This document shows positions 31,688 to 62,424 of a stretch of 64,000 nucleotides of DNA, piece after piece. Positions within the stretch are counted from its first letter, which is position 1. Every line of letters begins with the position of its first letter. The notes under the pieces were generated by a model, which saw only the letters and a list, made by a program, of their open reading frames with translations, was not told where the DNA came from and did not search any database. Origin of the DNA: Hyphomonadaceae bacterium (GTDB lineage: Bacteria > Pseudomonadota > Alphaproteobacteria > Caulobacterales > Maricaulaceae); assembly GCA_013001295.1 (NCBI GenBank), contig JABDMW010000046.1, positions 62,001 to 126,000 on the forward strand. Direction: 5' to 3'. A program made the translations under genes and the position numbers.

Positions 31688-32517
31688 GCTCGTCCTCCCG
31701 TTTTCACTGTACGTTTATGGCGGCGCAACACTTCGCGCCCTAATTTCATGTAAGCTTGGGATCCGGCGCAATAAGGATCATATTGTAAAACCGGCTTGCC
31801 AAAGGATGGAGCTTCGGCAATGCGCACATTGCGCGGAATCATTGTTTTAAACACGGCGCGGCCCAGATGTTTGCGGACGTCTGCCGCAACCTGATCAGAT
31901 AATCGGTTTCGTTTGTCATACATGGTAAGCATCACTCCATCGATGACCAAGCCGGGATTGATCTCGGCTTTCGCCATTTCAACCGTTTTCAAAAGCTGGC
32001 TTAAACCCTCTAACGCAAAAAACTCGCATTGAAGCGGCACAATCACGGAATCAGCGGCCGCCAGAGCATTTACCGTCAACAAGCTGAGACTCGGCGGGCA
32101 GTCGATTAGAATATAGTCTGGTTTTGGTGTATATTTCGTAATTGCGTTTTTTAAACGAGTGGTTCGGTTGGGCGAATTGGCAATTTGTAGTTCGGCACTG
32201 GACAGATCCATGTCAGACGCCACCAACAACAGGCCGGGCACACCGGATTGAACTTGTGCACCGGCCAAATCCGCTTCTTCGACGATGATGTCATAAAGGG
32301 TAATATCGCGTTGGCCGCGGCGCGCGCCGAGCCCAGTGGTTGCATTTCCCTGCGGATCGAGATCAATCAACATAACTGTTTGCCCCAATTGTGTGAGCGC
32401 TGCTGCTAAGTTGATTGTTGTTGTGGTTTTTCCGACGCCGCCCTTTTGGTTGACGATAGCAATGACCCGTGTGCTTTTTGATTCAGGCTGATTTTTGGTC
32501 AATCGACTGTCCCCCAT
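31684..32517 (-). CDS. parA: Chromosome-partitioning ATPase ParA
   Basis: This 277-aa ATPase has a deviant Walker A motif KGGVGKTTT near residue 25, LIDLDPQGNATTGLG, and DYILIDCPPSLSLLT. ATP-bound ParA dimers coat the nucleoid and pull ParB-parS complexes apart. The start overlaps the end of rsmG by about 35 bp and the stop overlaps parB by 4 bp, so rsmG-parA-parB form one operon. The length matches chromosomal ParA/Soj. Confidence 0.97.
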   Translation of the reverse strand: MGDSRLTKNQPESKSTRVIAIVNQKGGVGKTTTTINLAAALTQLGQTVMLIDLDPQGNATTGLGARRGQRDITLYDIIVEEADLAGAQVQSGVPGLLLVASDMDLSSAELQIANSPNRTTRLKNAITKYTPKPDYILIDCPPSLSLLTVNALAAADSVIVPLQCEFFALEGLSQLLKTVEMAKAEINPGLVIDGVMLTMYDKRNRLSDQVAADVRKHLGRAVFKTMIPRNVRIAEAPSFGKPVLQYDPYCAGSQAYMKLGREVLRRHKRTVKTGGRA

Positions 32518-33160: not shown

Positions 33161-35025
33161 CAAGACGCCCGCTTCAAATGCGCCAGTAAGGCCGTCAATG
33201 CACCAGGCGTGACGCCCTCTATCCGGCCCGCCTGCCCCAAAGTCGCAGGCCTCGCAGTCTCGAGCTTCTCTCTTACTTCGTTAGAGATTCCGCCGATGGA
33301 TTTGTAGTCGATATGGTCCGGCAAGCGGAGCCCTTCATCGCGCCTGAAGGCCGCTATCTCCCGAGCCTGTCTCTCGAGATAGCCGCTATACAGTGCTTCA
33401 GTCTCCAATGCTTCGCGGGCATAGAAAGGCAAGCTCTCGAGCTCCGGCCACATGGTTAACAAATCGTTAATTCCGATGTTGGGATAAGCAAGCAGGTCGA
33501 GTACAGTGCGGCGCACACCGTCCTCATTTACCTTCAGTCCGCGTAAATTCAATTCGTTCGGCGTCATACTTAATGTAGCGCCCAGCGCCCGCGCCCGCTC
33601 CAGCTCCTTTAGTTTTGCCTCAAAGAATGTTTCACGTGAAACATCGATCACACCGAGCTTCTGCGCAATAGGCGTAAGGCGCTGGTCCGCATTGTCAGCT
33701 CGCAAGATTAACCTGTATTCTGCGCGGGACGTAAACATGCGGTAGGGCTCGCTCACACCCTTGGTGATTAAATCGTCTATCAACACCCCAATATAAGCTT
33801 GTGAGCGATCCAAAATGAATGGCTCCCGACCTTGTGAGGCAAATGCGGCATTAAACCCGGCCACCAGTCCCTGCGCGGCCGCCTCTTCATATCCCGTTGT
33901 TCCATTGATTTGCCCTGCTAAATATAAGCCAGGTATCCTTTTGGTCTCTAACGTCGCCCTTAATTCGCGCGGATCTACATAATCATACTCAATCGCATAG
34001 CCATATCGCAGTATTTTAGCTTTTTCGAGGCCTTTAATCGTCCGCACAAATGCATCTTGAACATCTTCTGGCAAAGAAGTGGAAATTCCGTTGGGATAAA
34101 TAACCTCACCATCCGGCGTCCCCGGCAATCCCTCAGGCTCGAGAAAAATTTGATGCTTGTTGCGATCGGCAAATCTGACGACCTTATCTTCCAAAGATGG
34201 GCAATATCGGGGTCCGCGGCCGGATATTCCCCCTGAATACAAGGCAGACTTGGTAATATTATCTGAAATCACCTTATGTGTACGCTCGTTGGTGTGGGTT
34301 ATCCCACAGGATATCTGCGGCACCTCTATTTTCTCCGACATAAAGGAGAAAGGTACAGGGTTTGCGTCCGCCTCCTGAATGTCCAATATATCCCAATTTA
34401 TGCTGTTCGCCGCCAAACGTGCGGGCGTCCCGGTTTTTAATCGGTCCATCTTAAATCCGGCGCTATAAAGGCGCTCTGAGAGCCCAATAGCCGGCGCCTC
34501 CCCATGCCGTCCCGCCGGGATGCGCTTATTCCCGATATGAATCATACCCTTTAAGAAGGTGCCTGTAGTCAAAACCACGCGGTTCGCGCGCCATTCCCTG
34601 CCCTGCTCGTCGCTGACACCCGATATTTTTCCATCTTCAAACAGTAAATCGGTGACCGACGCGGCTTTTATCGTCAAACCTTCCTGGTCATCCAACATAT
34701 CCTGCATAGTTTTCTTATACAGGCCTCGATCAGACTGCGTACGCGGCCCCCGCACAGCCGGGCCTTTTGATCGGTTTAGTAATCTAAATTGAATTCCGGA
34801 CGCGTCCGCGACCAACCCCATTACACCACCTAACGCATCAACCTCACGGACCAAATGCCCCTTTCCGAGGCCCCCGATAGCCGGATTACAGGACATTTCG
34901 CCGATAGATTCGACCTTATGGGTCAGCAGTAATGTGCTTGCGCCGGCACGCGCAGCCGCGCTGGCGGCCTCACATCCTGCATGGCCACCCCCAATTACGA
35001 TTACGTCATACTTTATATCGATCAT
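33160..35025 (-). CDS. mnmG: tRNA uridine 5-carboxymethylaminomethyl modification enzyme MnmG
   Basis: This 621-aa FAD enzyme (GidA) works with MnmE to install cmnm5 on U34 of some tRNAs. The FAD motif [19 protein letters not shown] begins near residue 10; [15 protein letters not shown] and the C-terminal helical domain are present. A parS palindrome within the gene encodes VSRETF at about residues 461-466, a known effect of parS sites in gidA genes. It is coupled to rsmG downstream. Confidence 0.97.
33628..33643. promoter_or_regulatory. parS: parS site 1 (inside mnmG)
   Basis: TGTTTCACGTGAAACA is a perfect 16-bp match to the universal bacterial parS consensus bound by ParB. It lies in the mnmG coding region and is read there as VSRETF. 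Confidence 0.95.
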
Positions 35026-35126
35026 ATCGCCGTATCTGCGTTCTTTGTTGCTGTGAACGTCTTACAGAAGCCGTATGCGATTGTCGATTGCTTGCTGCAA
35101 TTAAAGACCAGGAATTTGTGAAAAAA

Positions 35127-35142
35127 TGTTTCACGTGAAACA
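35127..35142. promoter_or_regulatory. parS: parS site 2 (mnmG-mnmE gap)
   Basis: Perfect parS palindrome TGTTTCACGTGAAACA in the 131-bp gap between the mnmE stop and the mnmG start. It may also lie in the mnmG promoter region, so ParB binding could influence mnmG transcription. Confidence 0.95.
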
Positions 35143-35156
35143 TTAGCCCTAAAACT

Positions 35157-36512
35157 TTATTTTCCTATACAAAAACTGGAAAAAACCCGGTCCAAGACAG
35201 CTTCTATATCCGCCTCGCCCGCCAACTCCTTGATCGCATGCAGGGCAACTCGCAACTCCGCGCCTGACAATTCCGGCGCCACGCTCAAATTTTGATAAGC
35301 TTTAGTAACGGATTGCATTGCACGCCTGACGCAATCACGATGCCGGACACGGGTCAGGCCGGCCTGTTCGGTCGCTCCAAACCGTTCTCTTACGACGCGC
35401 TCCAACCCAATTACCAGATCATAAAACCCTTCGCCCGTTTTAGCGCTGATAAGAAATGTTTCACGTGAAACATTTTCTTCTCCTGATGGATTTTCATTTC
35501 CAAGGTCGGCTTTGTTATAGACCAAAAAGTCACCAGGCATCAGCGTCTCTGTCCCCAAGCTCATTGATGTGCTGCGAGTATCTACGACAAGAATCCGCAA
35601 GTCTGCATCTTCAGCGCGGAGCAGGGCGCGCCGGACCCCTTCGGCCTCGACTTTATTCGAGGTGTCCCGCAAGCCGGCCGTGTCCGACATGCGAACCGGG
35701 AGGTTGGCAAGCTCCATATGAACCTCTACTATGTCCCGTGTCGTCCCAGCCTCATCGGACACAATAGCGGCTTCCCTTCCAGCCAGCCTATTGATTATAC
35801 TCGACTTTCCGGAGTTTGGCTCTCCTATTATCGCTATATCAACGCCGTGTCGCACGCGCTCACCCCGACCACTTTCGGCCAGCGCTTTACTTAATTTTTC
35901 ACTGAGGTTGAAAAGGCCCGGCCCAGCCCGTTTAGCTAACGCGTCCGGCACATCCTCTTCATCAGGAAAGTCAATTTCGCCTTCCACAAATGCCAAGGCA
36001 TCGAGAATATCTGACCGCCATTGCTCATACTGATCCCGCAAGCCGCCCTTCATTTGCCGCAAAGCCTGATGTCTTTGCCCCTGCGTATTTGCATCAATAA
36101 GATCCGCGAGGCCCTCTGCTTCTGTCAAATCCATCTTCCCGTTTTGAAAGGCGCGTCTCGAAAATTCGCCTGGCTCTGCCTGCCGGAGACCTTGTTCATA
36201 CAGCGCCGTGCTCAACGCCTCGACCACGGCCGGGCTGCCGTGAATATGATATTCCGCCACATCTTCGCCTGTAAAACTATGAGGGCTTGGAAACCAAACC
36301 ACCAAAGCCTCATCAATTGGTGACTTTTTTTGATCAATTAACTTTCGAAGTGTCGCTTTTCGAGGTTTCGGCAATGACTGATCCGTGAGCCGTTGGACAC
36401 TAATATTCGTATCCGGGCCGCTAATTCTCATAACCGCTACCCCCGACCGGCCTTGCGGCGTCGCCAACGCGAAAATCGTATCGCTACGATCTGACTTTTT
36501 TAAATTATTCAT
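35157..36512 (-). CDS. mnmE: tRNA modification GTPase MnmE
   Basis: This 451-aa GTPase (TrmE) is the partner of MnmG in U34 modification. The N-terminal tetrahydrofolate-binding domain starts DTIFALATPQGRSGVAVMRISGP. The inserted G domain has GEPNSGKSSIINRL and SDEAGTTRD, and the C-terminus is FCIGK with the conserved Cys. A parS site is embedded in the G-domain region, encoding VSRETF at about residues 347-352. mnmG follows 131 bp downstream. Confidence 0.97.
   Translation of the reverse strand: MNNLKKSDRSDTIFALATPQGRSGVAVMRISGPDTNISVQRLTDQSLPKPRKATLRKLIDQKKSPIDEALVVWFPSPHSFTGEDVAEYHIHGSPAVVEALSTALYEQGLRQAEPGEFSRRAFQNGKMDLTEAEGLADLIDANTQGQRHQALRQMKGGLRDQYEQWRSDILDALAFVEGEIDFPDEEDVPDALAKRAGPGLFNLSEKLSKALAESGRGERVRHGVDIAIIGEPNSGKSSIINRLAGREAAIVSDEAGTTRDIVEVHMELANLPVRMSDTAGLRDTSNKVEAEGVRRALLRAEDADLRILVVDTRSTSMSLGTETLMPGDFLVYNKADLGNENPSGEENVSRETFLISAKTGEGFYDLVIGLERVVRERFGATEQAGLTRVRHRDCVRRAMQSVTKAYQNLSVAPELSGAELRVALHAIKELAGEADIEAVLDRVFSSFCIGK
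35457..35472. promoter_or_regulatory. parS: parS site 3 (inside mnmE)
   Basis: Third perfect TGTTTCACGTGAAACA palindrome, in the mnmE coding region and read as VSRETF in the G-domain region. It is about 10 kb from the proposed origin. Confidence 0.95.
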
Positions 36513-43988: not shown

Positions 43989-44438
43989 TTAAAAAGGCTC
44001 AACAATCGCCATTATCACGATAATAATGATTAAAATTGCCGGCACTTCGTTCAAAATCCGGTAAAATTTTTCAGTTCGTGGTCGTTCACCCCGGGCGAAT
44101 TTCTTGCGATCTGCAGCTAAAATACCGTGAATATAAAACAGAATAAACACAGCAAAAAGTTTAATCCAAAGCCAGCTGATCATCGCCAATTGATCATGAC
44201 GCAGGACGACAAGCACAAGCCCTAATAAAAATGCAACGATCATCGCCGGGTTTATGATAATCCGCAGCAAACGGTGTTCCTGACCGATGAGAGCTTTTTC
44301 CATTTCACCATCGGGTACGGCCTGCGAATGATACACATACAGCCGCGGTAAATACATCATACCTGCCATCCAAAAAATCACCGCAATCACATGCAACGCT
44401 TTGATCCAATCAATGTGCGATGCCAAGAAACTATACAT
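43989..44438 (-). CDS. hemJ: Protoporphyrinogen IX oxidase HemJ
   Basis: About 149 aa with four membrane helices. IDWIKALHVIAVIFWMAGMMYLPRLYVYH, with its conserved His, and the central KLFAVFILFYIHG match HemJ (UPF0093). HemJ oxidises protoporphyrinogen IX to protoporphyrin IX in the inner membrane for heme synthesis. I chose the ATG at 44438 with GGTGA upstream; it overlaps the hemE stop by 8 bp, so the genes are coupled. Confidence 0.93.
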   Translation of the reverse strand: MYSFLASHIDWIKALHVIAVIFWMAGMMYLPRLYVYHSQAVPDGEMEKALIGQEHRLLRIIINPAMIVAFLLGLVLVVLRHDQLAMISWLWIKLFAVFILFYIHGILAADRKKFARGERPRTEKFYRILNEVPAILIIIIVIMAIVEPF

Positions 44439-45465
44439 AATCACCTTTTCCGGTTCTAATATGGGCCAAAACTGCCTCCACATTCTTTATTTTAACATCC
44501 GGCGCTACGCCGTGTCCGAGATTAAAAATATGTGGGCCCCTCGCATCATCGAGGACTTTTTGAACCGCCCTTTTTAATACCGAGCCCCCTATGCGTAAGG
44601 CTAAGGGATCCAAATTTCCTTGTAATGGCAATTGATCTCCAAGCATATCCCGCGCCATAGTCAGACTTGTATCCGTCCCGATAGCTAAACCCGTAACATC
44701 AACTTGTTGCGCGAAACTCAGCATATTCAAACCAGCGCCGCGCGGAAATCCGATAATCGGCTGTTTTATACCCGCTGAACGAACACGTTCGATCATGCGC
44801 ACTGTCGGTTTAGTCACACATGTTTCGAACATTGCAGGTGAAAGCCCTTCAGCCCAACTTTCAAATATTTTTAATACTTCTGCGCCGGCTTTCGCTTGGC
44901 CAATCAAATAGTCCGCGCTCGCATCTGCCAGTTTATTGAGCAGCATCTCCATTTCTTTTGGGTTTTGCATGGCAAAGCGTTTCGCCACTTCTTTGCCAGA
45001 CGATCCCTTTCCTTCGATCATATAGGTCGCGACCGTCCAGGGTCCACCACAAAAACCTATCAAAGTGGTTTGATCATCCAATTCTTGGCTGACCCGTTTA
45101 ACTGTCTCAAACACATTAGAGATCCGGTCAGCTGCACCCTCCAATTCGAGCTTTTCAACATCCGTTACTTTCAGCGGATCCAGAACAGGTCCGGTGCCTG
45201 GAACAAAAGTGACTTTTCTGCCAAGCCCGATGGGTATGAGTAAAATATCGGCAAACAGAATTGCTGCATCCATTTTATATCTACGGATCGGCTGTAATGT
45301 GGCCTCTGCAGCCATTTCGGGCTGAAAGCAAAAATCTATAAAATCCTTCGCCTGTGTTCTTAGTTTTTTATATTCTGGTAAATGCCGTCCAGCTTGACGC
45401 ATAAACCAAACGGGTGGGGTCTCTAACTGTTCTCCAGAAAGCACCTTTAAAATAGGTTTGATCAA
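44431..45465 (-). CDS. hemE: Uroporphyrinogen decarboxylase
   Basis: This 344-aa cytosolic enzyme removes four acetate carboxyls from uroporphyrinogen III to give coproporphyrinogen III. The signature PPVWFMRQAGRHLPEY is at about residues 18-33, and FCGGPWTVATYM and NLGHGVAPD are present. The length is typical. It is coupled to hemJ, and its upstream region is the proposed replication origin, as in Caulobacter. Confidence 0.97.
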   Translation of the reverse strand: MIKPILKVLSGEQLETPPVWFMRQAGRHLPEYKKLRTQAKDFIDFCFQPEMAAEATLQPIRRYKMDAAILFADILLIPIGLGRKVTFVPGTGPVLDPLKVTDVEKLELEGAADRISNVFETVKRVSQELDDQTTLIGFCGGPWTVATYMIEGKGSSGKEVAKRFAMQNPKEMEMLLNKLADASADYLIGQAKAGAEVLKIFESWAEGLSPAMFETCVTKPTVRMIERVRSAGIKQPIIGFPRGAGLNMLSFAQQVDVTGLAIGTDTSLTMARDMLGDQLPLQGNLDPLALRIGGSVLKRAVQKVLDDARGPHIFNLGHGVAPDVKIKNVEAVLAHIRTGKGDYV

Positions 45466-45558
45466 AACTTGTTCCTTATTTGCACAGCTCTTTTTGTCTC
45501 TCTTATTATATTTATAAAAGTAGTGATAGTAGTAGAGCCTGTGACTTTGTGACCGGAA

Positions 45559-45573
45559 TTAAGACTTTTTTAA
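45559..45573. promoter_or_regulatory. CtrA binding site in the origin
   Basis: TTAA-GACTTTT-TTAA is an exact match to the CtrA consensus TTAA-N7-TTAA. In Caulobacter, CtrA bound in the origin blocks initiation in swarmer cells. It lies 1 bp from a weak DnaA-like box, which would allow competition. Confidence 0.65.
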
Positions 45574-45697
45574 CTTATCCTAATAAAACGATAATATGCA
45601 CACATCTTTCGATTTGGGGATATGAAGAATAAATCAATACACGCTGTGTAAAACCTATTTTTTGAACATAAATATAAGTAACTAGACAATTAAAACC

Positions 45698-45706
45698 TGT
45701 GGATAA
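45698..45706 (-). promoter_or_regulatory. DnaA box (perfect)
   Basis: TGTGGATAA on the + strand is the reverse complement of the consensus DnaA box TTATCCACA. A weaker GGATAA copy follows 3 bp later. Confidence 0.8.
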
Positions 45707-45764
45707 AAATAAGGATAAAATGTTTTGTACACTTTGTTTGAGACTCGAAAAAAAGTTGTGTACA

Positions 45765-45773
45765 TGTGGATAA
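45765..45773 (-). promoter_or_regulatory. DnaA box (perfect)
   Basis: Second perfect TGTGGATAA, same orientation as the first, 67 bp away and close to six helical turns. Confidence 0.8.
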
Positions 45774-45853
45774 AACCGAATAAATCTCCGTGGTTACACA
45801 TCTGATTTACGCTCGGTGAAAAAAGGTCTTTCTTTCTGTGAATGAAATACCGA

Positions 45854-45862
45854 GTATCCACA
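45854..45862 (+). promoter_or_regulatory. DnaA box (one mismatch)
   Basis: GTATCCACA differs from TTATCCACA at the first base. It lies just upstream of the chosen ppsR start and in opposite orientation to the two perfect boxes. Confidence 0.5.
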
Positions 45863-45882
45863 GGATATTAGGGATTGAAGAC

Positions 45883-46755
45883 ATGCCGGACAAACGCCGT
45901 AAAGCACCTGAAAAAATACAATCGATTTATTTCCATGTGCATTTGGTCTCTGACTCAACCGGCGAAACACTGGTTGCGACATCGCACGCATCATGCGCTC
46001 AATTTCCCCATGGTATCCCGGTGCAACATTTACATGCACTGGTGCGCTCAGAAGCCCAATTGGAGCGATCACTGGAATCGATCTCTGATTATCCCGGTAT
46101 CGTGTTTTATACGCTTGTGAACACAGAGCACCGACGATTACTGGAAGAGCGGTGCGCGAAACTGAATATTCCGGCTGTGTCTATCCTGGATCCCGCATTG
46201 GCCTCTTTGGGAAGGTATCTCGGCGCACCGATGAGTAGTGAAATCGGCGCACAACGGACGATGAATGAAGAATATTTCTCGCGGATAAGTGCGCTTGATT
46301 TTGCGATGGCTCATGATGACGGCAAAAATATTGAAGGGCTGTCAACGGCGGACATTATTTTGATCGGGATCAGCCGAACATCGAAAACACCGACCTGTAT
46401 TTATTTGGCAAATCGTGGATTTAGAACAGGTAATATCCCGCTTGTACCCGGCACCAACCTGCCTCCTGACGTGCTGACATATAAAAAGCCTTTTATTGTC
46501 GGGCTTGTTTCATCTCCGGACCGTATCGTCGAAATACGTAAACAACGTCTTTCTGGTCTCGGGCAGGACAGAACCACGCCTTATGTCAGCAAAGAACAGG
46601 TGCGCGAGGAGATGTTGATGGCCAAACGGTTGTTTGCAAAAAACCGTTGGCCGGTTGTGGATACAACCCGTCGCTCTATCGAGGAATCTGCAGCGCGGAT
46701 TATTAATTTGTATCAAGATTTTACGGAGAGAAATCACGGGGTAGGGTCATCATGA
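45883..46755 (+). CDS. ppsR: Kinase-pyrophosphorylase of the DUF299/PpsR family
   Basis: About 290 aa. HVHLVSDSTGETL near the N-terminus and the P-loop-like GISRTSKTPTCIYLANRG (about residue 165) define the family. It switches PEP synthetase or pyruvate phosphate dikinase on and off by ADP-dependent phosphorylation and phosphate-dependent dephosphorylation. I chose the ATG at 45883; a GTG at 45838 would put the coding region over a DnaA box. It overlaps maf by 4 bp. Which of the two target enzymes it controls is not shown here. Confidence 0.93.
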   Translation: MPDKRRKAPEKIQSIYFHVHLVSDSTGETLVATSHASCAQFPHGIPVQHLHALVRSEAQLERSLESISDYPGIVFYTLVNTEHRRLLEERCAKLNIPAVSILDPALASLGRYLGAPMSSEIGAQRTMNEEYFSRISALDFAMAHDDGKNIEGLSTADIILIGISRTSKTPTCIYLANRGFRTGNIPLVPGTNLPPDVLTYKKPFIVGLVSSPDRIVEIRKQRLSGLGQDRTTPYVSKEQVREEMLMAKRLFAKNRWPVVDTTRRSIEESAARIINLYQDFTERNHGVGSS

Positions 46756-50012: not shown

Positions 50013-51161
50013 TTAAATAGGCTTGGCAACAACGCCGATGCTTTCTGCCGTTGCTTCGCTGTTATCGACTAGAGGTCCTTTGCCGAGCTGACCATAGCAG
50101 ATGGCGAGGCTTTTCTTGACGATATAATCACAGCGTTCAAAACGCCTGTCGCGATAGCTTTTAAAAGCTTCAATAGGACTTGAAGCTTTGGTGAGTTCAT
50201 CAGCTAAAACGAGCGCGTCTTCAATCGCAAGTCCTGCGCCCTGACCTAAATGCGGCGTTGTTGCGTGAACAGCGTCGCCTAATAATCCCACGCGCCCTTT
50301 GTGCCAATCGCCCTCGACCATCAACCATTCCAGTGGCCGATAGACGACGCCGTCATTATCGGTAACATCATCGGCATAGTGATGAAGCTTAGGGCAGGCC
50401 ATGGCAAGACGATCTTTCATTTCCTGTGCAAGTGTAGATTTTTTAAAATGAGGTTTCCCGGGTTCTGCAGTTGTGACGTACATGTAAATTTTTTCTTCGG
50501 ACATAGGTACGAGCCCAACACCAATCCGGCCATTATAAACATGCAGACCTTCCATGTCTTTTGGACGATCAAAATTGTAGCGCCAGACCGATTGTCCTGT
50601 AAATTCCGGACCGGGAATATCCGGGAAAAGTGTGCTGCGAGTTTGTGAATATACACCGTCAGCTCCAATCACGAGATCAAAGCGTCCTTCGCTACCATCG
50701 CTGAAGGTCACATCAACATAATCACCTGTGTCGTTGATGGTTGTTGCCGTTAGGCCCAGCCGAATAGTTGCTCCGGACTTTTCTGCACTTTCGGCCAGTA
50801 CTTTTTGCAAAGCAGGGCGGGCAATGCCGGCATTGGCCGGATATCCTTCAACGAGCGGCGGGAGCGGTATTTTGGCGACTTCCATACCGTTTGGGGCAAA
50901 TATTTTAACATGGTCAAAACCGTAGCCTGCATCGATATAATCGTCGATGACGCCAAGTTCATACATAGCGCGAATAACGTTATTTTGCTGAATAATCCCA
51001 ACCCCGTAGACCGTCCATTCAGGATCTTTTTCAATCATCTCGACGTCATACCCCTTTTTACGGAGAGCAATGCCGGCCGATAATCCGCCAATGCCTGCGC
51101 CTATAACTAAAACTTTCCAAGGGTTACCTTCACCTTGAAAGGAGGGTTCATTGATCGTCAT
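50013..51161 (-). CDS. FAD-dependent aromatic monooxygenase
   Basis: This 382-aa group A flavoprotein hydroxylase has the GxGxxG motif VIGAGIGGLSAGIALRKKG (from residue 19), the DG motif VIGADGVYSQTRS, and GLLGDAVHATTPHLGQGAGLAIEDA (GD motif). It should use NAD(P)H and O2 to hydroxylate a phenolic ring. The family includes salicylate, hydroxybenzoate and related hydroxylases; the substrate here is unknown. It is in the catabolic operon 15 bp after the FAH gene. Confidence 0.93.
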   Translation of the reverse strand: MTINEPSFQGEGNPWKVLVIGAGIGGLSAGIALRKKGYDVEMIEKDPEWTVYGVGIIQQNNVIRAMYELGVIDDYIDAGYGFDHVKIFAPNGMEVAKIPLPPLVEGYPANAGIARPALQKVLAESAEKSGATIRLGLTATTINDTGDYVDVTFSDGSEGRFDLVIGADGVYSQTRSTLFPDIPGPEFTGQSVWRYNFDRPKDMEGLHVYNGRIGVGLVPMSEEKIYMYVTTAEPGKPHFKKSTLAQEMKDRLAMACPKLHHYADDVTDNDGVVYRPLEWLMVEGDWHKGRVGLLGDAVHATTPHLGQGAGLAIEDALVLADELTKASSPIEAFKSYRDRRFERCDYIVKKSLAICYGQLGKGPLVDNSEATAESIGVVAKPI

Positions 51162-51176
51162 ATCGTCTATCCTTAC

Positions 51177-52151
51177 CTAGTTTTGCTTAACTTGCTGATC
51201 GATCGCGCCAAACAAAGGTGCATCTGTTTGACTGCGCGCTTCCATGCGAACACGGTCACCAAAAGACATAAAGGGCGTCCGGATTTCACCGAACTCAATC
51301 ATGTCTATGGCACGACGTTCTGAGATGCAGGACGAACCGACCTCGGCATAGTTTTTATTCGAAACTGTGCCTGAACCAATTATCGTTCCAGCAACAAGAT
51401 CGCGTGTCTTGGCAGCGTGTGCTATGATTTCATGAAATCCATATTCCATCTCATGACCTTGTGCCTCACCAAATCGTTTGTCGTTCCAGTCGACTCGGAG
51501 CGGAAGATGAACCCGCCCGTCTTGCCATGCTTCACCCAGTTCGTCGGGTGTTAAGGCCACGCCGGCCATGCTACAGGGCGGTTTGGCTTGGACGAACCCG
51601 AACCCGGTTTTCATTTCGGCTGGACCAAAATTTCGTAAGCTCCAATCATTAATTTGAACAACGAGCTTGATATGGTTCAGTGCGTTTTTTGCAGAAATAC
51701 CCATAGGGACAGCGTCAACGATGACACCAAACTCTCCTTCAAAGTCTATGCCGTCCGTTTCCGATGCAAAAGGTACCGTATCAGACGGGCCGTAGAAGCG
51801 ATCCGACAGCCCTTGATACATGAGTGGTTGTCCGGCATCTAAGGGCGGTAAGTTATAGGCCTGCTGCATAAGGTGACCGTGCTGAGGAAAGGCTGACCCG
51901 TCGAGCCATTGCCAAGATCGAGGTAACGGGGCAGATGCATGAGAACTGTCAAATGACTTTGCATCGTTCAGATCTCCCGCATTTAGATCATCCGCAAGAC
52001 GGCGCAATTGACTTTCAAGCGTCGCCCACTCTTCGATTGCAGTTAGAAGATTAGGCGCAATCGACTCCGCGCTGACGTAATGGCTGTTATCGGTTGAAAC
52101 AATGACGAGCGTGCCATCAGGCTTATCAGATTTTAGCGTAGCAAGTCTCAT
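51177..52151 (-). CDS. Fumarylacetoacetate hydrolase family protein
   Basis: About 324 aa. The FAH domain shows IDFEGEFGVIVD (metal Glu and Asp), KPPCSMAGVALTPDELG and GSGTVSNKN. Family members hydrolyse C-C bonds of diketo acids or hydrate and isomerise meta-cleavage products. I chose the ATG at 52151; the open frame runs further upstream but into the cupin gene. It is 16 bp after the cupin gene, consistent with a late ring-cleavage step. Confidence 0.92.
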   Translation of the reverse strand: MRLATLKSDKPDGTLVIVSTDNSHYVSAESIAPNLLTAIEEWATLESQLRRLADDLNAGDLNDAKSFDSSHASAPLPRSWQWLDGSAFPQHGHLMQQAYNLPPLDAGQPLMYQGLSDRFYGPSDTVPFASETDGIDFEGEFGVIVDAVPMGISAKNALNHIKLVVQINDWSLRNFGPAEMKTGFGFVQAKPPCSMAGVALTPDELGEAWQDGRVHLPLRVDWNDKRFGEAQGHEMEYGFHEIIAHAAKTRDLVAGTIIGSGTVSNKNYAEVGSSCISERRAIDMIEFGEIRTPFMSFGDRVRMEARSQTDAPLFGAIDQQVKQN

Positions 52152-52167
52152 GGGCAGGCCCGTAGGG

Positions 52168-52734
52168 TTAAGCAAGTTCGGGGGAAAATTTACCGTCAAT
52201 AAGAATGAAAGCGATCCGGCAATCTTGATCAGAGCGATTGGCCCAACCGTGATTTGTGCCCCGCTGAATAATAATGTCGCCTGCTTTGCAGAGTGTTTCA
52301 CCTTCATCCATAATCAAAACGATTTCACCCGACAGAACGATGCCGTAATCAATGGTTTCCGTTTTGTGCATGTGTGCGTGACGTTCACTATTTCCGCCAT
52401 CCGCGACTGCGTCGCCGGCCCCGATTTCTTCGAAGTGGGCAATACGCTCTTCCGCTGACATCGTTTCAAAACTGGCATCATCTGGCGGGATATCCAAGAC
52501 CCGAATGCGCGTTCCATTAGCAGGAGGTGCCAGAACAATTTTATCCTCAGGCGGCTCACCGCTTGCAGGATCGATAGGTGCAGGCGTGGCTGTCGTATTC
52601 CAAACCTCGTAAAACATAGGGCCTGTTCCGCCTCCAATCCGTTGAACGCGGGGTGGAGGGCTATCTTCAAGTATTATGGCTTTGCCTTCAGAATTATGGC
52701 CAGTCACAATTCGGCGAAACGGGGCTTCAGTCAT
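52168..52734 (-). CDS. Cupin domain protein
   Basis: This 188-aa single-domain cupin has motif 1 HAHMHKTETIDYGIVLSGE (two His and a Glu as metal ligands) and motif 2 GDIIIQRGTNHGWANRS (third His). Residues 1-110 add a unique N-terminal half. It could be a dioxygenase, isomerase or sensor; no specific activity can be read. It is tightly packed between the P450 and FAH genes. Confidence 0.9.
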   Translation of the reverse strand: MTEAPFRRIVTGHNSEGKAIILEDSPPPRVQRIGGGTGPMFYEVWNTTATPAPIDPASGEPPEDKIVLAPPANGTRIRVLDIPPDDASFETMSAEERIAHFEEIGAGDAVADGGNSERHAHMHKTETIDYGIVLSGEIVLIMDEGETLCKAGDIIIQRGTNHGWANRSDQDCRIAFILIDGKFSPELA

Positions 52735-52735
52735 T

Positions 52736-53953
52736 CTACTCTCCTATTTTCTCTATTTTCACAGGCAGGCTTTCGATAGAGCACAATGTGTTGTTCAACC
52801 GTATTACGGGAGCGCCCACCGCCGTAATCCGTGATATTTTTTCGCGCATCGCAGATAGTAATGCGTCTGCCTCCATACGCGCAACCATCTGGCCTAGGCA
52901 GACGTGAATTCCGTGACCAAAGCCAACATGTCCTGATGCATTGCGGGTAACAGAAAAGTCATTTGGGTTTTCCCATCGACGTTCGTCTCGGTTAGCGGCA
53001 GCCAAAAACGTAAGAACTTTAGAGCCTTCAGGAATTTCTACATTAGCGAGTGTCGTGTCTTGCGCTGCCGTCCGGAAAAAAGTCTGGACTGTTGAACGCC
53101 ACCGAAGACCTTCATTGAACGCTCGGCGTGTAGAACTTTGGTCTGTACCCATCTTTTCCCATTCATCAGGAAATTGAGTGAAAGCGTACATCAAGTTTGA
53201 AACACCGTTTACCGTTGTATCAACACCGGCTGATAACAAAGATCGAACGAGTCGCTCTGCCTCCTGATGTGTGCAATCACCACGATCAGCTGATTGGAAC
53301 ACCGCTTCACCCCATCCATCCTTCTTCAAATTCTCGCGCTTGCAGGCCTGTGCAACCCATTCGCTAGCCTCGGCGGCGTCTGCCATGCCGTCTTCGAAAA
53401 TTTTATTACGCGGACCAAATGCATTGAAGACGATGGCCGCATAAGTCAGTAAGTGATGTCGACCTTCGTCCATAAGCCCAACAGCATCGGGGAACACCCG
53501 CATAGGAAATTCTTCGGCAAGGTCAATTACGGCGTCAAACTCATCCTTTTGGATTAATTCTGCGACTAATTCTTTGGCCTTTGTCCGCCATAGGTCTTCA
53601 AGCCCTTTTAAGACCGGCATCGCGACGATTCTATTCATTACATCGCGTGTTCGATTGTGCAGAGGTGGATCAGCTTCCAGCAAAAGCGATGGCGGCCTGA
53701 AGGGTTTTTCTTTAGAAAAATCAGCTAGCCCTACGCCGCGGCTGGAAACGAAAACGTCATGGTTTTTTAAAACCTGCGTGACTTCTTCATGTCGCGCCAC
53801 ACCATAAACGCCAATGGAGTCCAGCCAAAACACTGGTCCGACTTCACGAAGGCGTGGATGATGCGCAAAGGGGTCCGACAAAAACTCTTCCGAGAATGGA
53901 TCAATCTCGACCCTCGGTACATCCATAGGAATATGTGAAGCGAGTCCCTGCAT
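52736..53953 (-). CDS. Cytochrome P450 (CYP199-like)
   Basis: About 405 aa. The heme-binding loop FGHGIHVCLG has the thiolate Cys352; the I-helix motif AGVDTT and the ExxR motif EGLR are present. SSRGVGLADFSKEKPFRPPSLLLEADPP strongly recalls CYP199 enzymes, which O-demethylate para-methoxybenzoates. I chose the ATG at 53953, 2 bp after the hydrolase stop. Electron donors are not encoded adjacent. The CYP199 link is by recall, not alignment. Confidence 0.93.
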   Translation of the reverse strand: MQGLASHIPMDVPRVEIDPFSEEFLSDPFAHHPRLREVGPVFWLDSIGVYGVARHEEVTQVLKNHDVFVSSRGVGLADFSKEKPFRPPSLLLEADPPLHNRTRDVMNRIVAMPVLKGLEDLWRTKAKELVAELIQKDEFDAVIDLAEEFPMRVFPDAVGLMDEGRHHLLTYAAIVFNAFGPRNKIFEDGMADAAEASEWVAQACKRENLKKDGWGEAVFQSADRGDCTHQEAERLVRSLLSAGVDTTVNGVSNLMYAFTQFPDEWEKMGTDQSSTRRAFNEGLRWRSTVQTFFRTAAQDTTLANVEIPEGSKVLTFLAAANRDERRWENPNDFSVTRNASGHVGFGHGIHVCLGQMVARMEADALLSAMREKISRITAVGAPVIRLNNTLCSIESLPVKIEKIGE

Positions 53954-53955
53954 AT

Positions 53956-55116
53956 CTAAGCCGTGCGTCCGCCAAGCGTATCTGCAAACCAATCTGCGAT
54001 ATAATCGCGGCCGTAAGACATATTGTCAGCGCCGACATGTTCAATACCGCCCTCGCGAGGCGTGAAGATTTTAAGCTCAGGTTTGATGGAATTTGTCATC
54101 TGCTCAAAAGCCTGATGGGCATATTTGACATTGATTTGACGGTCATTTTCACCGTGTGTGATCAGGAACGGCATTTTGATTTTATCCATATGGCCGTTCA
54201 TATTCATGCCCTCGACTTTCTTGAAAAAGTCCTCTTTATCTGTCGCGCCGAATACCCAGTACACATGCTTCCAATAATGCGGCACAGGATTTTCGCCCTC
54301 ACGGTCAAGACGGCCGATTTGAACTTCGTGCCAATTATGATTGGCGCCCCAAACGGCGCCGGAGGCAAATCGAGGTTCATAAGCAGCAGCCCGCGCTGCA
54401 AAATGTCCACCCAGCGAAATACCGGTCACACCGATTCTCTTGGCGTCCACATCGTCGCGCGCAGCAAGATAGTCAAAGCAAGGCGAAGCCCATTCTTCGG
54501 AAAATGGTGTCGCAGGCAAACCATGCAGCCTCAGGGTTTCGCCGGTGCCGGGCTGGTCGATACATAATGTGGAAATGCCGCGTTTCGCCAAGGCCGTCGG
54601 CAACCAGCTCCAGAACAAAAGCTCTTTTGAACTGTCCAATCCGTTACAATATAGGACGCAGGGGGCTTCGCCTTCGACGCCCTGCGCGCGAGTAAACAAA
54701 CCCGGAATGATTGCGCCTTTATACGGTATCTCAACGCGTTCAATGTTCTCGCCGCTATATTTGACGTAATTCTTGAATGCGTCTTGGGCCTTTGCAAAGG
54801 TGGCGGCTTTACCAGGCTGTCCGGCGCCCTGCATGCGTTCAGCTGTCGTGTAATAGAGTGCCGCACGGCGCAACTTTTCTGCCGCTGAAAATTTGCGGCC
54901 GCGGTCTAAATCTTCGTTTGCGAGTTCAGACAAAGTTTCTGCCTTTCGGGCCCATTGTCTCATGAACTGTGGTGTGCCTGCATCGGCGCCTTCATCGGCC
55001 GCTCGCTTAATAGGTTCGCACATATCGACGATTTCGCCGAGCTCAGCGCCGCTGGCGACGGCGATGGCCACAGAAAGATTCCAAATATAATTTGGGAAAA
55101 ACTCGTACAGGGCCAT
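53956..55116 (-). CDS. Alpha/beta hydrolase, 2,6-dihydroxypseudooxynicotine hydrolase-like
   Basis: This 386-aa protein has a helical N-terminal cap domain of about 130 residues. The hydrolase core has the oxyanion region YCNGLDSSKEL, the nucleophile elbow GISLGGHFA, an Asp in THGENDRQI and a His near GIEHVGADN. The layout matches the FrsA/DHPON-hydrolase type that can cleave C-C bonds. Next to an extradiol dioxygenase, a meta-cleavage product hydrolase role is likely but inferred. It lies 1 bp after the dioxygenase gene and 2 bp before the P450 gene. Confidence 0.88.
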   Translation of the reverse strand: MALYEFFPNYIWNLSVAIAVASGAELGEIVDMCEPIKRAADEGADAGTPQFMRQWARKAETLSELANEDLDRGRKFSAAEKLRRAALYYTTAERMQGAGQPGKAATFAKAQDAFKNYVKYSGENIERVEIPYKGAIIPGLFTRAQGVEGEAPCVLYCNGLDSSKELLFWSWLPTALAKRGISTLCIDQPGTGETLRLHGLPATPFSEEWASPCFDYLAARDDVDAKRIGVTGISLGGHFAARAAAYEPRFASGAVWGANHNWHEVQIGRLDREGENPVPHYWKHVYWVFGATDKEDFFKKVEGMNMNGHMDKIKMPFLITHGENDRQINVKYAHQAFEQMTNSIKPELKIFTPREGGIEHVGADNMSYGRDYIADWFADTLGGRTA

Positions 55117-55117
55117 G

Positions 55118-56020
55118 TTAAATTCCTACATCTTTAAACAATCCAGCGTCGGGCATTGGTTTAGGCATGGTTTCAGGCCCGCCAACACCAAACCCCCATT
55201 GATCCATAATTTCTTTGCTGGGAGGATGAACTTTGGCCTCCCAAGTCTCGTCATCTACTTCTTCAAGGTCACAAGTATATTCCACGGCATATCCGGCCGG
55301 TGTAACAAAATATGAAAAGACATTATTGCCAGCAGTGTGGCGACCAGGGCCCCATCTAATGTCGCCATTTGTACTGCGCAAACGCGCTATGCCTTTCATA
55401 ATCGCGTCAATATCCGGCACGTCGTAGGCGACGTGATTAAAAGCGGGAGGTCCAGGAAGGATAGCCAGCCGATGATGCCACTCATTGCAACGCAAAAAGC
55501 ACATAAAGTCACCAAGCCAATCCGAAGTTTTGAACCCCAAAGCGTTCTCATAAAATTTGACGTAGTCCTTATGATTAGGTGAATGGAGAACAAAGTGGCT
55601 TATCTTTTCGGGTCGAGGCTCGCCCGCCTCGAGCACCTCAGGCGTCTTGGTTTCAAATTCTGTCGAGACTTCAATGGTGAAACCGTTGATGTCAAAGAAC
55701 CGAAATCCATAACCTCCGCCCAAACTATCAAGCTCATGGGGCTGATTAATGAGTTTACCGCCGGCCTTTTCAATTTGTGGCACCAGCGCATCGACTTCAG
55801 CACGATCCTTTGCGCTCCAGCCGATAACGTCAATACGAGGTTCATCGGTCTGGCGAAGACGCACGGAGTAAGAAGGGGTGCTGCCCGGCGCAACAAGATA
55901 AACCATCCCGTCAGTGCTAGATATTTCCTCGAGCTTCCAGCTCTCAATATAGAACTTTTTTTCAGCTTCCAGATCGGAAACGCCGTAGCCTATATATCGG
56001 ATGTCATTTACGCGAGCCAT
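55118..56020 (-). CDS. Two-domain VOC extradiol dioxygenase-like protein
   Basis: This 300-aa protein has two VOC modules. The N-terminal one starts IRYIGYGVSDLEAEKKFY. The C-terminal one carries the candidate Fe(II) ligands His (ISHFVLHSP), His (FNHVAYDV) and Glu (YAVEYTCDL), as in type I extradiol dioxygenases of the 2,3-dihydroxybiphenyl dioxygenase type. These open catechol rings next to the hydroxyls. It lies 1 bp before the hydrolase gene, fitting consecutive steps. Confidence 0.9.
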   Translation of the reverse strand: MARVNDIRYIGYGVSDLEAEKKFYIESWKLEEISSTDGMVYLVAPGSTPSYSVRLRQTDEPRIDVIGWSAKDRAEVDALVPQIEKAGGKLINQPHELDSLGGGYGFRFFDINGFTIEVSTEFETKTPEVLEAGEPRPEKISHFVLHSPNHKDYVKFYENALGFKTSDWLGDFMCFLRCNEWHHRLAILPGPPAFNHVAYDVPDIDAIMKGIARLRSTNGDIRWGPGRHTAGNNVFSYFVTPAGYAVEYTCDLEEVDDETWEAKVHPPSKEIMDQWGFGVGGPETMPKPMPDAGLFKDVGI

Positions 56021-56046
56021 TTTGGTCTCCTGTGTTTTCTTCAGTA

Positions 56047-56757
56047 TTATGCTGCCGTTGCACTTGCGTTGGCGGGCTTAGATTTTAAAAATTTTGGCAT
56101 CAAACCATTTTCTTGCAAATATTTCTCGGCTTCTGCCTCCCGCGCAATGGCGCGCTGCGTGGCGGGATTTTTTAATGTTCTGGCGTAATGCGCGGAGATA
56201 TTTGGGAAATCTTTGGGATCAAAACCTGCTCCTGTTATGCGAAACCACACCCAATGTAGATAAGCGTCGAGAATTGACCAATGCGACCCGGCTAACCAGT
56301 CGTTTTGACTAAGCGTTTCTTCAATAGGAAGAAGTTGATCGCGGATGCTATCGATCGCCATCGCCGCTACACGCTCAGGTCCGCCGTCAATATCGCAAAA
56401 GAACATAGGCACACGTATTCTGGAAACTAAAGGGTGGAGGTCAGAAGAAAACTTAGCCAGTGAGCTTAGAAGCTGCGCTTGCCCCATTTTATTCTCAGTT
56501 CTCGGGAGTAGCTTTGCATCAGGATAGGCTGCGTCGAGCCATGTCAGTATCGCGATATTTTGAGATATAGGCACGCCGTCGACAACCAGAACAGGGATTT
56601 TTGAGGAGGGGTTGAGTTTTTTAAACGCCGGCGTTTTGTGAGCCCCCTTCATGAAAACCATAAGTTCTGTTTCAAAAGGGACTCCAATTGCCTCTAAGGC
56701 AATCAAAGGGACGCGAGAGCAAGCACCAGGAGAGAAATGTAGTGTCAACTTTAACAT
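56047..56757 (-). CDS. Glutathione S-transferase family protein
   Basis: This 236-aa protein has an N-terminal domain starting LTLHFSPGACSRVPLIALEAIGVPFE, with SSKIPVLVVDGVPISQNIAILTWL as the glutathione loop, and a helical C-terminal domain. In aromatic pathways such proteins act as maleylpyruvate isomerases, dehalogenases or ether-bond enzymes; which applies is unknown. It is the first gene of the eight-gene operon, 26 bp before the dioxygenase gene. Confidence 0.9.
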   Translation of the reverse strand: MLKLTLHFSPGACSRVPLIALEAIGVPFETELMVFMKGAHKTPAFKKLNPSSKIPVLVVDGVPISQNIAILTWLDAAYPDAKLLPRTENKMGQAQLLSSLAKFSSDLHPLVSRIRVPMFFCDIDGGPERVAAMAIDSIRDQLLPIEETLSQNDWLAGSHWSILDAYLHWVWFRITGAGFDPKDFPNISAHYARTLKNPATQRAIAREAEAEKYLQENGLMPKFLKSKPANASATAA

Positions 56758-56914
56758 ATATACCGCAGGGCTGAAAATTTTGAGCTACTGGTTTTATTGA
56801 ACACCTCTATTTCCCCATAGCTACGCGGCTTATCCCGCTAGAATTTATAGTTTTATGGAATAGAGGATGTTGTTGGATAATAAAAAGTTATTGTTTTTAT
56901 AGATATGTATTCGT

Positions 56915-57817
56915 CTAAGTAATGATTGTGTCTTGAATTTGGGCGATCATCCATTTGAGGCCCGGATCGTCTGCACGAGTGCTGTGATATTGGGCATGTT
57001 CCTGCAGAACAGGAAAATCAAATGGGATGTCCGCGATGGCAATTGGGAGGCGCGCAGCGAAGAAATTCGCCAGACGTTTGTGCATAACGGTCAGTCTATT
57101 CGTGCCAACAACGATTTCCGGAGCCAAAAGAAACGAACCCACTTGTACATTTGTTTGACGGGGTTTCTTTCGGGCCTCTAAAAGCTGATCTGTCACGGAA
57201 AGGGAGCGGATGCGTCCCAGTTTAACGACAACATGTCCGGATTCGTAAAAATTTTTTTCAGAGAGGCCGGATTTGAAAATGGGATTTGATTTACATCCGA
57301 CCACGACAAAGCGCTCTTCGAAAAGAAGCTCCGATGGGAAATTGTTAGAAAGCATTTGCTTTGGAGCCAGCTTCAAGTCGATCCGGCCTTGATCCAACAA
57401 CTGATCTGTCGAGTCCGTGGGAGCCAATAACTCGATCTGGATATTCGGTGCGGTGGGGCTGAGGCGCCGAAGGAGCGGCACGAATACAATTTGAGACAAA
57501 TAATCGGATGCGGTAATTGTGAATTTGCGGGTAGATGTAGACGGATCGAAGTATGCCGTTTTCGAGATCAGCGAGTCCACATTCCCTAGAACGCTTTTTA
57601 ACTCTTCATGTATGCGCAAAGCATGAGAGGTGGGGACCATGCGTTTGCCGTGCAAATTTAATATCGGGTCGTTAAAAAAGTCGCGGATGCGCCGGAGGGC
57701 CGCACTCATCGCCGGTTGGCTCAAATTTAATCTCTCGGCTGCTCTGGAGACACTTTTCTCATCAAGCAAAGCGTCAAGTGCCATAAGCAGGTTTAGATCA
57801 AGACCTTTAAATCTCAT
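56915..57817 (-). CDS. LysR family transcriptional regulator
   Basis: This 300-aa protein has an N-terminal winged HTH (LDLNLLMALDALLDEKSVSRAAERLNLSQPAMSAALRRIRDFF) and a substrate-binding C-terminal domain, as in NodD/LinR-type LysR regulators. It lies upstream of the catabolic operon in the same direction and is divergent from the TonB receptor, so it may control both. An aromatic inducer is likely. Confidence 0.95.
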   Translation of the reverse strand: MRFKGLDLNLLMALDALLDEKSVSRAAERLNLSQPAMSAALRRIRDFFNDPILNLHGKRMVPTSHALRIHEELKSVLGNVDSLISKTAYFDPSTSTRKFTITASDYLSQIVFVPLLRRLSPTAPNIQIELLAPTDSTDQLLDQGRIDLKLAPKQMLSNNFPSELLFEERFVVVGCKSNPIFKSGLSEKNFYESGHVVVKLGRIRSLSVTDQLLEARKKPRQTNVQVGSFLLAPEIVVGTNRLTVMHKRLANFFAARLPIAIADIPFDFPVLQEHAQYHSTRADDPGLKWMIAQIQDTIIT

Positions 57818-57872
57818 TTTACATCTTTCATTACGAACAGAGCTAATGGCTTATAAACCAATTACGCATCCT

Positions 57873-57891
57873 ATCCATCAAAAAAATGGAT
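57873..57891. promoter_or_regulatory. Inverted repeat, candidate LysR operator
   Basis: ATCCAT-N7-ATGGAT is a perfect inverted repeat in the 177-bp gap between the lysR and TonB receptor genes, 56 bp from the lysR start. The spacing is of the T-N11-A type favoured by LysR proteins. Confidence 0.4.
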
Positions 57892-57994
57892 GAACAATTA
57901 TAAAAACAATCAATTTTACGGATATTGAAACCAAGCCTAGTGTGATTCCAATTCATAATGGCGTGAGACGTCTATACTCAGGGGAATCCTTAAT

Positions 57995-60547
57995 ATGACC
58001 AAGACAGCTTTATTTACATCCGGTGCGGTATTTCTGGCCTTAGCCATAAGTGGTCCGGCCTATGCGCAGCAATCAGGTGAAACCAACGCCAATGATGGTC
58101 GCCAACTAGGCGAAATCGTTGTGACCGCGCAGCGCCGCGAGCAATCTTTGCAGGATGCCGCTATACCTATGCAGGCATTTGATCAAGATTCGTTGACACA
58201 GTCCGGCTTAGAATCAGCACAAGACCTTGGCCAATTGTCACCGGCTATAGGTATCAGCGCAGGTGGCGGTCCGTTGACAAGTGTTTTTGTTCGCGGCGTA
58301 GGAGCTCTGACCGTTAATCCACTGACAGATTCAGCGGTCGCGCAAAACGTTGACGGTGTTTACCTAGGGCGTTCCAGCGGAATGGCCGGTCAAGCCTTAT
58401 TTGACCTGGAACGTATTGAGCTTCTTAAGGGGCCGCAAGGCACTCTCTATGGCCGAAACGCGACAGGTGGTGTTGTAAACTATATTCCAGTGAAGCCTAA
58501 ATTGGGTGAAAACTCCGGCTATTTGCAAGGCGAGTTCGGCAATTATTCCAAGGTGGGTGTGCAAGGGGCTGTCAACTTCGATATAGGTGACGGAAAAACG
58601 GCTTTTCGCTTGTCGGGCAATCGTTTAAAGCGCGACGGCTATTCAGATGATGGAACAAATGATCAAGATTCTTTTAGTCTACGTGCACAGGTTTTGATTG
58701 AACCGACCGACAATCTTTCTGTCCGAGTTGCGGCAGATTATTCTGAAATTAACGGTACAGGTCCGGGCGGAGATTTGTATGGGACCTATAGCAACGATAC
58801 TGGGTCGCTTACAGATTTCACACCTTCGGGTTTAGAGATTGATAGTGGCCCGAGCTCTGATGGGGCAAATGCCATTAGAGCTGGTGTTCTTCATACGCCT
58901 TCATTTGCGCCTTTCCGGCCTATAGATGGCGATAATTTGTTCCAAGACATCAGCTTTACCGGTGTGATGGCGGAAATCAATTACGGTATCGATGCCGGTA
59001 CATTTACATTTATTCCGGCTTACAGAGAATCCGATCAGGATTATGCATTTTCCGGGCCCGGTTTTGCTCCCGCGGTTACTAAAGAAGAAAACAGTCAGAA
59101 GAGCTTGGAGCTTCGCTTTGCATCTGATCTTGAAGGCCCCTTCAACGGTATTGTCGGTGCGTTTTATATTGAAGAAGATATCAGCACGAGTGGCATATTT
59201 GCGCAGAACTATGCAACGCCTATGCAAAATTATGATAATGGCGGCGAGTCATGGGCGATCTTTGGACAAGGAACTTTTGACGTGAGTGAAGCGTTCCGTT
59301 TAAATGCCGGGATTCGCTACACAGAGGATAGCAAATTCGTTGACGGAATTAGTGATACATTTGTGACTTTCTGCGGGGGCTCGCCCATTAGTGGCGACTT
59401 CTTAACCCCCGGACCGCCTTTTGTACCAAATGCATTCAACCATGGTTGCGCTGTTCCCGGGGCGATTCCTGCTCATCCATTAGTAACTAACCGGGATGAA
59501 TTTATTCAGTACTTCGTGGATCAAGGGGCGCTTGCACCCGGTTCCGTCGCAACGGTTCCGGGAATGGGCCCGCCTCCGGTTTATAATTTAACGGTACCGT
59601 TTCCTGCTGGTTTTCCTGCGGGCTTAGCGCCTCCACCATTTCCCGGTTTTCCTGTCCCAGGTCGTCCGGCTCAACTCGCCGCAATCGTAAATGTAGGCGA
59701 TGGTGCGTTACAGCAAGAACTTGACTATAATGAAGTGACGTATCGCATAGGTGCGGAATACGATTGGGGGCCGAGTAACCTACTCTATGCTACATATGAG
59801 ACCGGGTATCGTGCTGGGGGTGTTGATTTGAGTACAGCTAGCCCGACTTATGATCCGGAGTATATTGACGCCTTTACACTTGGGTCAAAAAACCGTTTCT
59901 TGGATAATACATTGCAGGTCAATGCCGAAGCCTTCCTATGGAAATATGATGGTCAACAGGTGACATATTTCACGACCTTGGACTCAGCCTCTGCATTCCC
60001 AATTGCAAATGCGGATGCGACCATAAAAGGCGTCGACCTTGACGTCATTTGGGCGGCGACTGATAATACCACAATTAGCGGCAATGTTCAGATTTTGGAC
60101 TCCACATATGATGACCTGCAACTGATTTCCGATCCTGGCAGGGGCCGGTTTGGTTGTGATTCAACGGGTGTCGCTAACAACATAGAAAGCTATGACTGTT
60201 CAGGAAATGCATTGCTATATTCACCAGACTTTGGTGCAGATTTGACCATCAATCATATAATTGACCTGGCAAAGTTCGACTTGTCGTTGACCGGTAATGT
60301 TTCTCATCGCGCTGAACAACAAACGAATTTCTTGTTCTTAGACGATACCGCTTCGGGCTCTTATACAACATTGAACTTAGATGCTACTCTATCGACCGAT
60401 GATGCAGGCTGGTCGATATCTGCTTTCATGCGAAATGTGACAGATGAGCGTTACCTCACCAATACGAGTGTTAGTAATCGCGGTTTATCTTACGGTGTTT
60501 ATAACGCGCCGCAAACATATGGCGTGCGTCTTCGCGCAAACTTTTAG
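57995..60547 (+). CDS. TonB-dependent outer-membrane receptor
   Basis: This 850-aa protein has a signal peptide (to about residue 24, PAYA-QQ), a TonB-box/plug start GEIVVTAQRREQSLQDAAIPMQAF, plug motifs LKGPQGTLYGRNATGGVVNY, and a C-terminal barrel ending VRLRANF. This is the sphingomonad/Caulobacter type without a Secretin/STN domain. An unusual loop rich in Pro, Gly and Phe is at about residues 525-565. It faces away from the lysR gene, and a sulfatase follows. It probably imports the substrate of the catabolic cluster. Confidence 0.95.
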   Translation: MTKTALFTSGAVFLALAISGPAYAQQSGETNANDGRQLGEIVVTAQRREQSLQDAAIPMQAFDQDSLTQSGLESAQDLGQLSPAIGISAGGGPLTSVFVRGVGALTVNPLTDSAVAQNVDGVYLGRSSGMAGQALFDLERIELLKGPQGTLYGRNATGGVVNYIPVKPKLGENSGYLQGEFGNYSKVGVQGAVNFDIGDGKTAFRLSGNRLKRDGYSDDGTNDQDSFSLRAQVLIEPTDNLSVRVAADYSEINGTGPGGDLYGTYSNDTGSLTDFTPSGLEIDSGPSSDGANAIRAGVLHTPSFAPFRPIDGDNLFQDISFTGVMAEINYGIDAGTFTFIPAYRESDQDYAFSGPGFAPAVTKEENSQKSLELRFASDLEGPFNGIVGAFYIEEDISTSGIFAQNYATPMQNYDNGGESWAIFGQGTFDVSEAFRLNAGIRYTEDSKFVDGISDTFVTFCGGSPISGDFLTPGPPFVPNAFNHGCAVPGAIPAHPLVTNRDEFIQYFVDQGALAPGSVATVPGMGPPPVYNLTVPFPAGFPAGLAPPPFPGFPVPGRPAQLAAIVNVGDGALQQELDYNEVTYRIGAEYDWGPSNLLYATYETGYRAGGVDLSTASPTYDPEYIDAFTLGSKNRFLDNTLQVNAEAFLWKYDGQQVTYFTTLDSASAFPIANADATIKGVDLDVIWAATDNTTISGNVQILDSTYDDLQLISDPGRGRFGCDSTGVANNIESYDCSGNALLYSPDFGADLTINHIIDLAKFDLSLTGNVSHRAEQQTNFLFLDDTASGSYTTLNLDATLSTDDAGWSISAFMRNVTDERYLTNTSVSNRGLSYGVYNAPQTYGVRLRANF

Positions 60548-60571
60548 TCTAGCGACGTAAGTTTGAATAAT

Positions 60572-60613: not shown

Positions 60614-60657
60614 AGATAGAAAATTAGATGTAAGCTTTGACATTAAGGATGAGAGTT

Positions 60658-62409: not shown

Positions 62410-62424
62410 ATTGATTCAATATAT

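Follow-up and report, generated by a model that had tools for sequence, protein, structure and literature searches.

The intergenic gap between hemE and ppsR is almost certainly the chromosomal replication origin (oriC) of this Hyphomonadaceae bacterium, a marine relative of Caulobacter. Bacterial origins of this type are well known. The window, by which we mean the whole 64-kb stretch of DNA that was analysed, corresponds to C36:62001-126000, a part of the 248-kb contig C36 in a 59-contig draft genome of 3.49 Mb. The gap is 417 bp long with a GC content of 0.32, in agreement with its description as gene-free and AT-rich in a previous reading made from the sequence only (the sequence-only reading). 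It lies within the gene order parB-parA-rsmG-mnmG-mnmE...rho-hemJ-hemE, gap, ppsR-maf-aroE-coaE-dnaQ, and the wider gene order around it is common to members of the family. A GTG codon at 45838 is possible as the start of ppsR in place of the ATG at 45883; this start would shorten the gap, and the right-end boxes alone would then fall within the gene. We also observed a 22-nt imperfect inverted repeat (77%) between 45494-45515 and 45668-45689, by which the AT-rich candidate opening stretch pairs with a site 152 nt away. Farther to the right, the gene run at 50013-64000, named by eye from the translations, comprises genes resembling those for an FAD monooxygenase, a fumarylacetoacetase, a cupin, a cytochrome P450, an alpha/beta hydrolase, an extradiol-type dioxygenase, a glutathione transferase, a LysR regulator, a TonB receptor and a sulfatase, and is possibly an aromatic-compound catabolic cluster.

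Table. Features of the hemE/ppsR gap and its surroundings (window coordinates)
Feature	Position	Strand	Basis or remark
Origin gap	45466..45882	.	between divergent hemE (-) and ppsR (+); low GC, box cluster, low stability
hemE, uroporphyrinogen decarboxylase, left flank	44434..45465	-	TIGR01464, 376 bits
ppsR, PEP synthase / PPDK regulator (DUF299), right flank	45883..46752	+	NF003742, 313 bits
Conserved unwinding module, 93 bp	45513..45605	+	cross-relative model match; identity above rest of gap
AT-rich stretch beside trios, candidate DUE	45500..45519	.	stability minimum starting at 45502, ranked third among 30-bp stretches of the 248-kb contig
DnaA-trio-like triplets TAG-TGA-TAG-TAG-TAG	45521..45535	+	sequence; read 3'-GAT-5' away from boxes
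Two tandem weak DnaA half-boxes, TGTGACTTT and TGTGACCGG	45540..45556	-	8 bp start to start
CtrA-type site TTAA-N7-TTAA	45559..45573	.	consensus match; 2 bp from second weak box
Perfect DnaA box TTATCCACA	45698..45706	-	14-bp direct repeat shared with next box, spacing 67 bp
Perfect DnaA box TTATCCACA	45765..45773	-	position moderately conserved in congeners, 0.59
Right-end box pair	45837..45862	.	TCATTCACA (-) at 45837-45845; GTATCCACA (+) at 45854-45862
Perfect parS sites TGTTTCACGTGAAACA, n=3	33628..35472	.	exact 16-bp palindromes at 33628, 35127 and 35457

The DnaA boxes were examined against a null model of 2000 dinucleotide shuffles of the gap. Two perfect TTATCCACA boxes are present, both on the - strand, and they are the only ones in the window. 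When mismatches were allowed, the count rose to three boxes at one mismatch or fewer, the additional one being GTATCCACA of the right-end pair, and to nine at two or fewer. The corresponding shuffle means were 0.0085, 0.16 and 1.8, and none of the 2000 shuffles reached two perfect boxes. The gap is also the top DnaA-box cluster on C36, and it therefore contains a box cluster beyond chance as required of an oriC, which bears out the earlier claim of two perfect boxes in one orientation accompanied by several weaker ones. Among congeners, conservation climbs back to 0.63 and 0.57 at the right-end pair, and in relatives the columns of this pair hold boxes resembling TTATCCCCA. The second requirement, easily unwound DNA, is also found in the gap, since, of all 400-bp stretches of the contig, the one beginning at 45450 has the lowest stability; together with the 30-bp minimum listed in the table, this substantiates the unwinding-prone runs noticed previously. 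The GANTC site that had been listed with them is present once, at 45742, but it is uninformative, because its count is close to our estimate of the composition expectation and it has no fixed place in the gaps of relatives.

We computed GC skew over the whole of C36, over part of another contig and over stretches of relatives. The cumulative minimum of C36 was at C36:118141 (window 56141), some 10 kb from the gap; mean skew was -0.026 to the left of the gap and +0.018 to the right, a weak and noisy signal. The three parS sites lie 10-12 kb from the gap in the mnmG-mnmE region, near rsmG and near parB and parA (30632-32517). The dnaA gene is located on another contig, C29, at 183 kb, and the 134 kb examined there (60-194 kb) showed mostly negative skew, no clear sign change and no box cluster. 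A skew minimum elsewhere, for example near dnaA, had been named beforehand as contrary evidence, and none appeared on C36 away from the vicinity of the gap or on the examined part of C29, to the extent that a draft allows; dnaA as the origin was rejected, given the lack of a box cluster or a clear skew change on the examined part of C29. The same comparison was possible in a closed member of the family, G014 (one contig, 3.45 Mb), in which hemE, the gap and ppsR are at about 3,150,700 and dnaA is at base 1,357. Its coarse skew is mainly negative at 1.56-3.28 Mb and positive at 0-1.39 Mb. Within 832 contiguous kb around both loci, the minimum was at 3,115,593, with the gap at a distance of 35 kb and dnaA at 336 kb, and no box cluster in these 832 kb ranked above that of the gap. 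In the closed genome G036, the skew minimum was broad and, at coarse sampling, was not placed at the gap. The offsets of the minima in C36 and G014 could mean that the true initiation site lies some 10-40 kb away, outside the gap. However, gene strand use and rearrangement blur skew minima, the contig contains no competing box cluster, and the conserved module described below sits in the gap itself, so that we regard such a displaced site as extremely improbable.

The best-conserved part of the gap in the alignment of congener gaps was the hemE-proximal module and not the two perfect boxes, the mean pairwise identity being 0.72 within the module and 0.40 elsewhere in the gap. The module consists of the AT-rich TTATAAAAG, TAG-TGA-TAG-TAG-TAG, AGCC, TGTGACTT-TGTGACCGG, AA, TTAAGACTTTTTTAA and CTTATCCTAATA, followed by TAATATGCACAC. 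A calibrated model built from 16 relatives without the window gave one match in the bacterium's own genome at an E-value of 1.5e-20, the next being 0.25, and a profile from 14 relatives, also without the window, matched C36 at 1.9e-19 with a next best value of 4.7. When 200 genomes of the order were searched, the module was found at E below 1e-6 in 14 genomes of the same family, including its own. Six of these genomes (genus g9) were outside the model, and all six matches fall in the gap that separates hemE from ppsR. The weaker partial matches come from two other families, and most of them are also in this gap; the GC-rich members of the family and the order were not reached by the model. In three GC-richer members of the family (G016, G036 and G020), hemE, the gap and ppsR are kept, consensus DnaA boxes are few, and a CtrA-type site is found near ppsR and not near hemE, which suggests that the motif layout of the origin has been rebuilt within the family.

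The left flank of ppsR could be judged in nine congeners, the sequence of a tenth, G003, starting 336 bp before ppsR. Neither hemE nor hemJ was next to the gap in any of the nine, and rho was the nearest recognised gene to the left in six of them, yet the module remains beside ppsR. By model, hemE is absent from seven of the 14 genomes of genus g1, some of which are 98-100% complete, and six of these seven also lack hemB. A divergent hemE (about 36% identity), sited elsewhere, was found in five of the 14 genomes, and in four of these five it is on the same contig as hemB, about 2-11 kb apart. Apart from the present species, only G010 has the hemE type linked to Cori, and there it is a fragment. 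It looks as if heme synthesis was lost and then regained by transfer within one genus. The boxes and hemE, on which the sequence-only reading had relied, are present as stated, but the most conserved part is the 93-bp module. Since hemE is gone from the locus in the congeners, the argument from this flank is good for the present species; in most of the genus it would not hold.

The persistence of the module bears on whether the gap might be an ordinary divergent hemE/ppsR promoter region under DnaA and CtrA, with the origin elsewhere, for example at dnaA. The two genes are indeed divergent, DnaA and CtrA regulate promoters too, and conserved noncoding blocks can be promoters. A promoter region is nevertheless a very improbable explanation, because the module stays by ppsR once hemE and hemJ are gone, it is unique in the genome, the skew minimum and parS are close to the gap, and dnaA has no box cluster. 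In addition, sigma-70-like matches in the gap were at chance level, as were those of the terminator scan. A different possibility, compatible with the origin reading, is that the conserved block acts, instead or in addition, as a regulatory RNA or as the promoter of one. Since the CcnA RNA is transcribed from the origin of Caulobacter (PMC8959179), a transcript from the gap is possible, and the gap as single-stranded DNA folds somewhat better than shuffles (z -2.6). On the other hand, no Rfam family matched, although Rfam may have no CcnA family, and the block fits the order of box, spacer, trios and AT-rich DNA known from origins; we therefore consider an RNA function unlikely. A sub-threshold Rfam PreQ1 match inside hemE was taken as chance.

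The preferred reading as an origin is consistent with the internal order of the module. The BUS order, that is, box, short spacer, 3'-GAT-5' trios and AT-rich DNA, is found in Bacillus subtilis and has been predicted in most bacterial origins (PMC8287927). The module shares with the B. subtilis oriC the tandem boxes, the short spacer, the trios and the AT-rich DNA. The triplets TAGTAGTAG at 45527-45535 are separated by 12 bp from TGTGACCGG and by 4 bp from TGTGACTTT, and the 12-bp value, which applies to the second box position, is inside the peak reported for box-to-trio spacers at 10-13 bp (PMC8287927). Judged from its letters, the region contains a predicted BUS trio element, with at least three NAN trios beside a DnaA-box position at a spacer of up to 16 bp, and the box-proximal TAGTAG-like triplets are kept in relatives. 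Unlike in the BUS, the boxes of the window keep little beyond the CACA half, to which their good match is limited (4 and 5 mismatches), and a CtrA-type site is present on their far side. Several congeners have TTATnCACA, with at most one mismatch, at the position of the second weak box.

A perfect CtrA-type site located -385 to -300 from ppsR was found in 7 of 17 gaps, compared with 0.28 expected from shuffles that ignore kinship, and other relatives have TTAA-N7-GTAA at this position. The site in the table is the only perfect one in the gap, and the sole one-mismatch site, at 45447, falls inside hemE. Both GcrA and CtrA are encoded in the genome, the latter with 86% identity to a Caulobacter CtrA sequence. 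In Hyphomonas neptunium, a related stalked bacterium, CtrA binding adjoins the origin as determined by ChIP-seq (PMC7200025).

From what was observed, namely the elements, how conserved and unique they are, and the skew, we infer how DnaA binding, strand opening and control by CtrA would proceed. DnaA would bind the strong boxes on the right-hand side of the gap, and this DnaA would cooperate to place further DnaA on the weak half-boxes, which would need such help because they are degenerate and retain hardly anything beyond the CACA half. A DnaA filament would then extend from the weak half-boxes onto the trios and open the adjoining AT-rich stretch beside hemE, where the helicase would be loaded; this stretch is likely the site of first strand opening. 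By analogy with Caulobacter (PMC4468827), CtrA would block DnaA at the TTAA-N7-TTAA site. Phosphorylated CtrA bound 2 bp from the launching box may exclude DnaA, so that no start would occur in non-replicating cells.

With respect to its flanks, hemE and the DUF299/COG1806 gene (ppsR), the gap is the positional orthologue of Cori of Caulobacter crescentus, which lies between the same two genes in a gap of about 400 bp (PMC1914354, PMC4468827). Cori also has an AT-rich region, DnaA boxes, CtrA sites and parS within about 10 kb (PMC1914354, PMC4468827). The flanking genes had been recognised correctly in the sequence-only reading; the label of a Cori type, however, holds for position and not for motif content. 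In Cori, two moderate G-boxes TGATCCACA and five W-boxes are accompanied by five CtrA sites and an IHF site. In the window there are instead the two perfect TTATCCACA boxes, and a scan of the gap at one mismatch or fewer found no TGATCCACA. The gap also contains a single perfect TTAA-N7-TTAA and not the multiple sites of Cori, and no match to the IHF consensus WATCAANNNNTTR or to two looser patterns. Based on these differences, we classify the gap as an oriC orthologous to Cori by position, and not as a copy of Cori regulation. The origin of Rickettsia prowazekii, a distant lineage, is also between hemE and COG1806 (PMC1914354). Our literature search, of limited coverage and not proof of novelty, found no publication joining Cori, CtrA and the DnaA-trio.

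Based on these observations, we tentatively suggest that, family-wide, the unwinding core and the CtrA site may form one fixed module, with a separation of 2 bp between CtrA and the weak box from which DnaA is launched onto the trios. In such an arrangement, CtrA could be a direct gate on strand opening in a layout unlike that of Cori, and the module, not hemE, could be what invariably identifies the origin across this lineage. The finding fixes the origin for one group of marine bacteria whose known genomes are mainly drafts, a prerequisite for estimating growth rates from read coverage, and hemE is an unsafe origin marker in this genus. For specialists, the interest lies in the conserved CtrA-flanked unwinding module and in the separation of the origin from hemE. 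The module is short and alignable, with DnaA launching sites, trios and a CtrA-type site within about 60 bp, and because of this compactness the block of initiation by CtrA outside Caulobacter becomes testable by footprinting.
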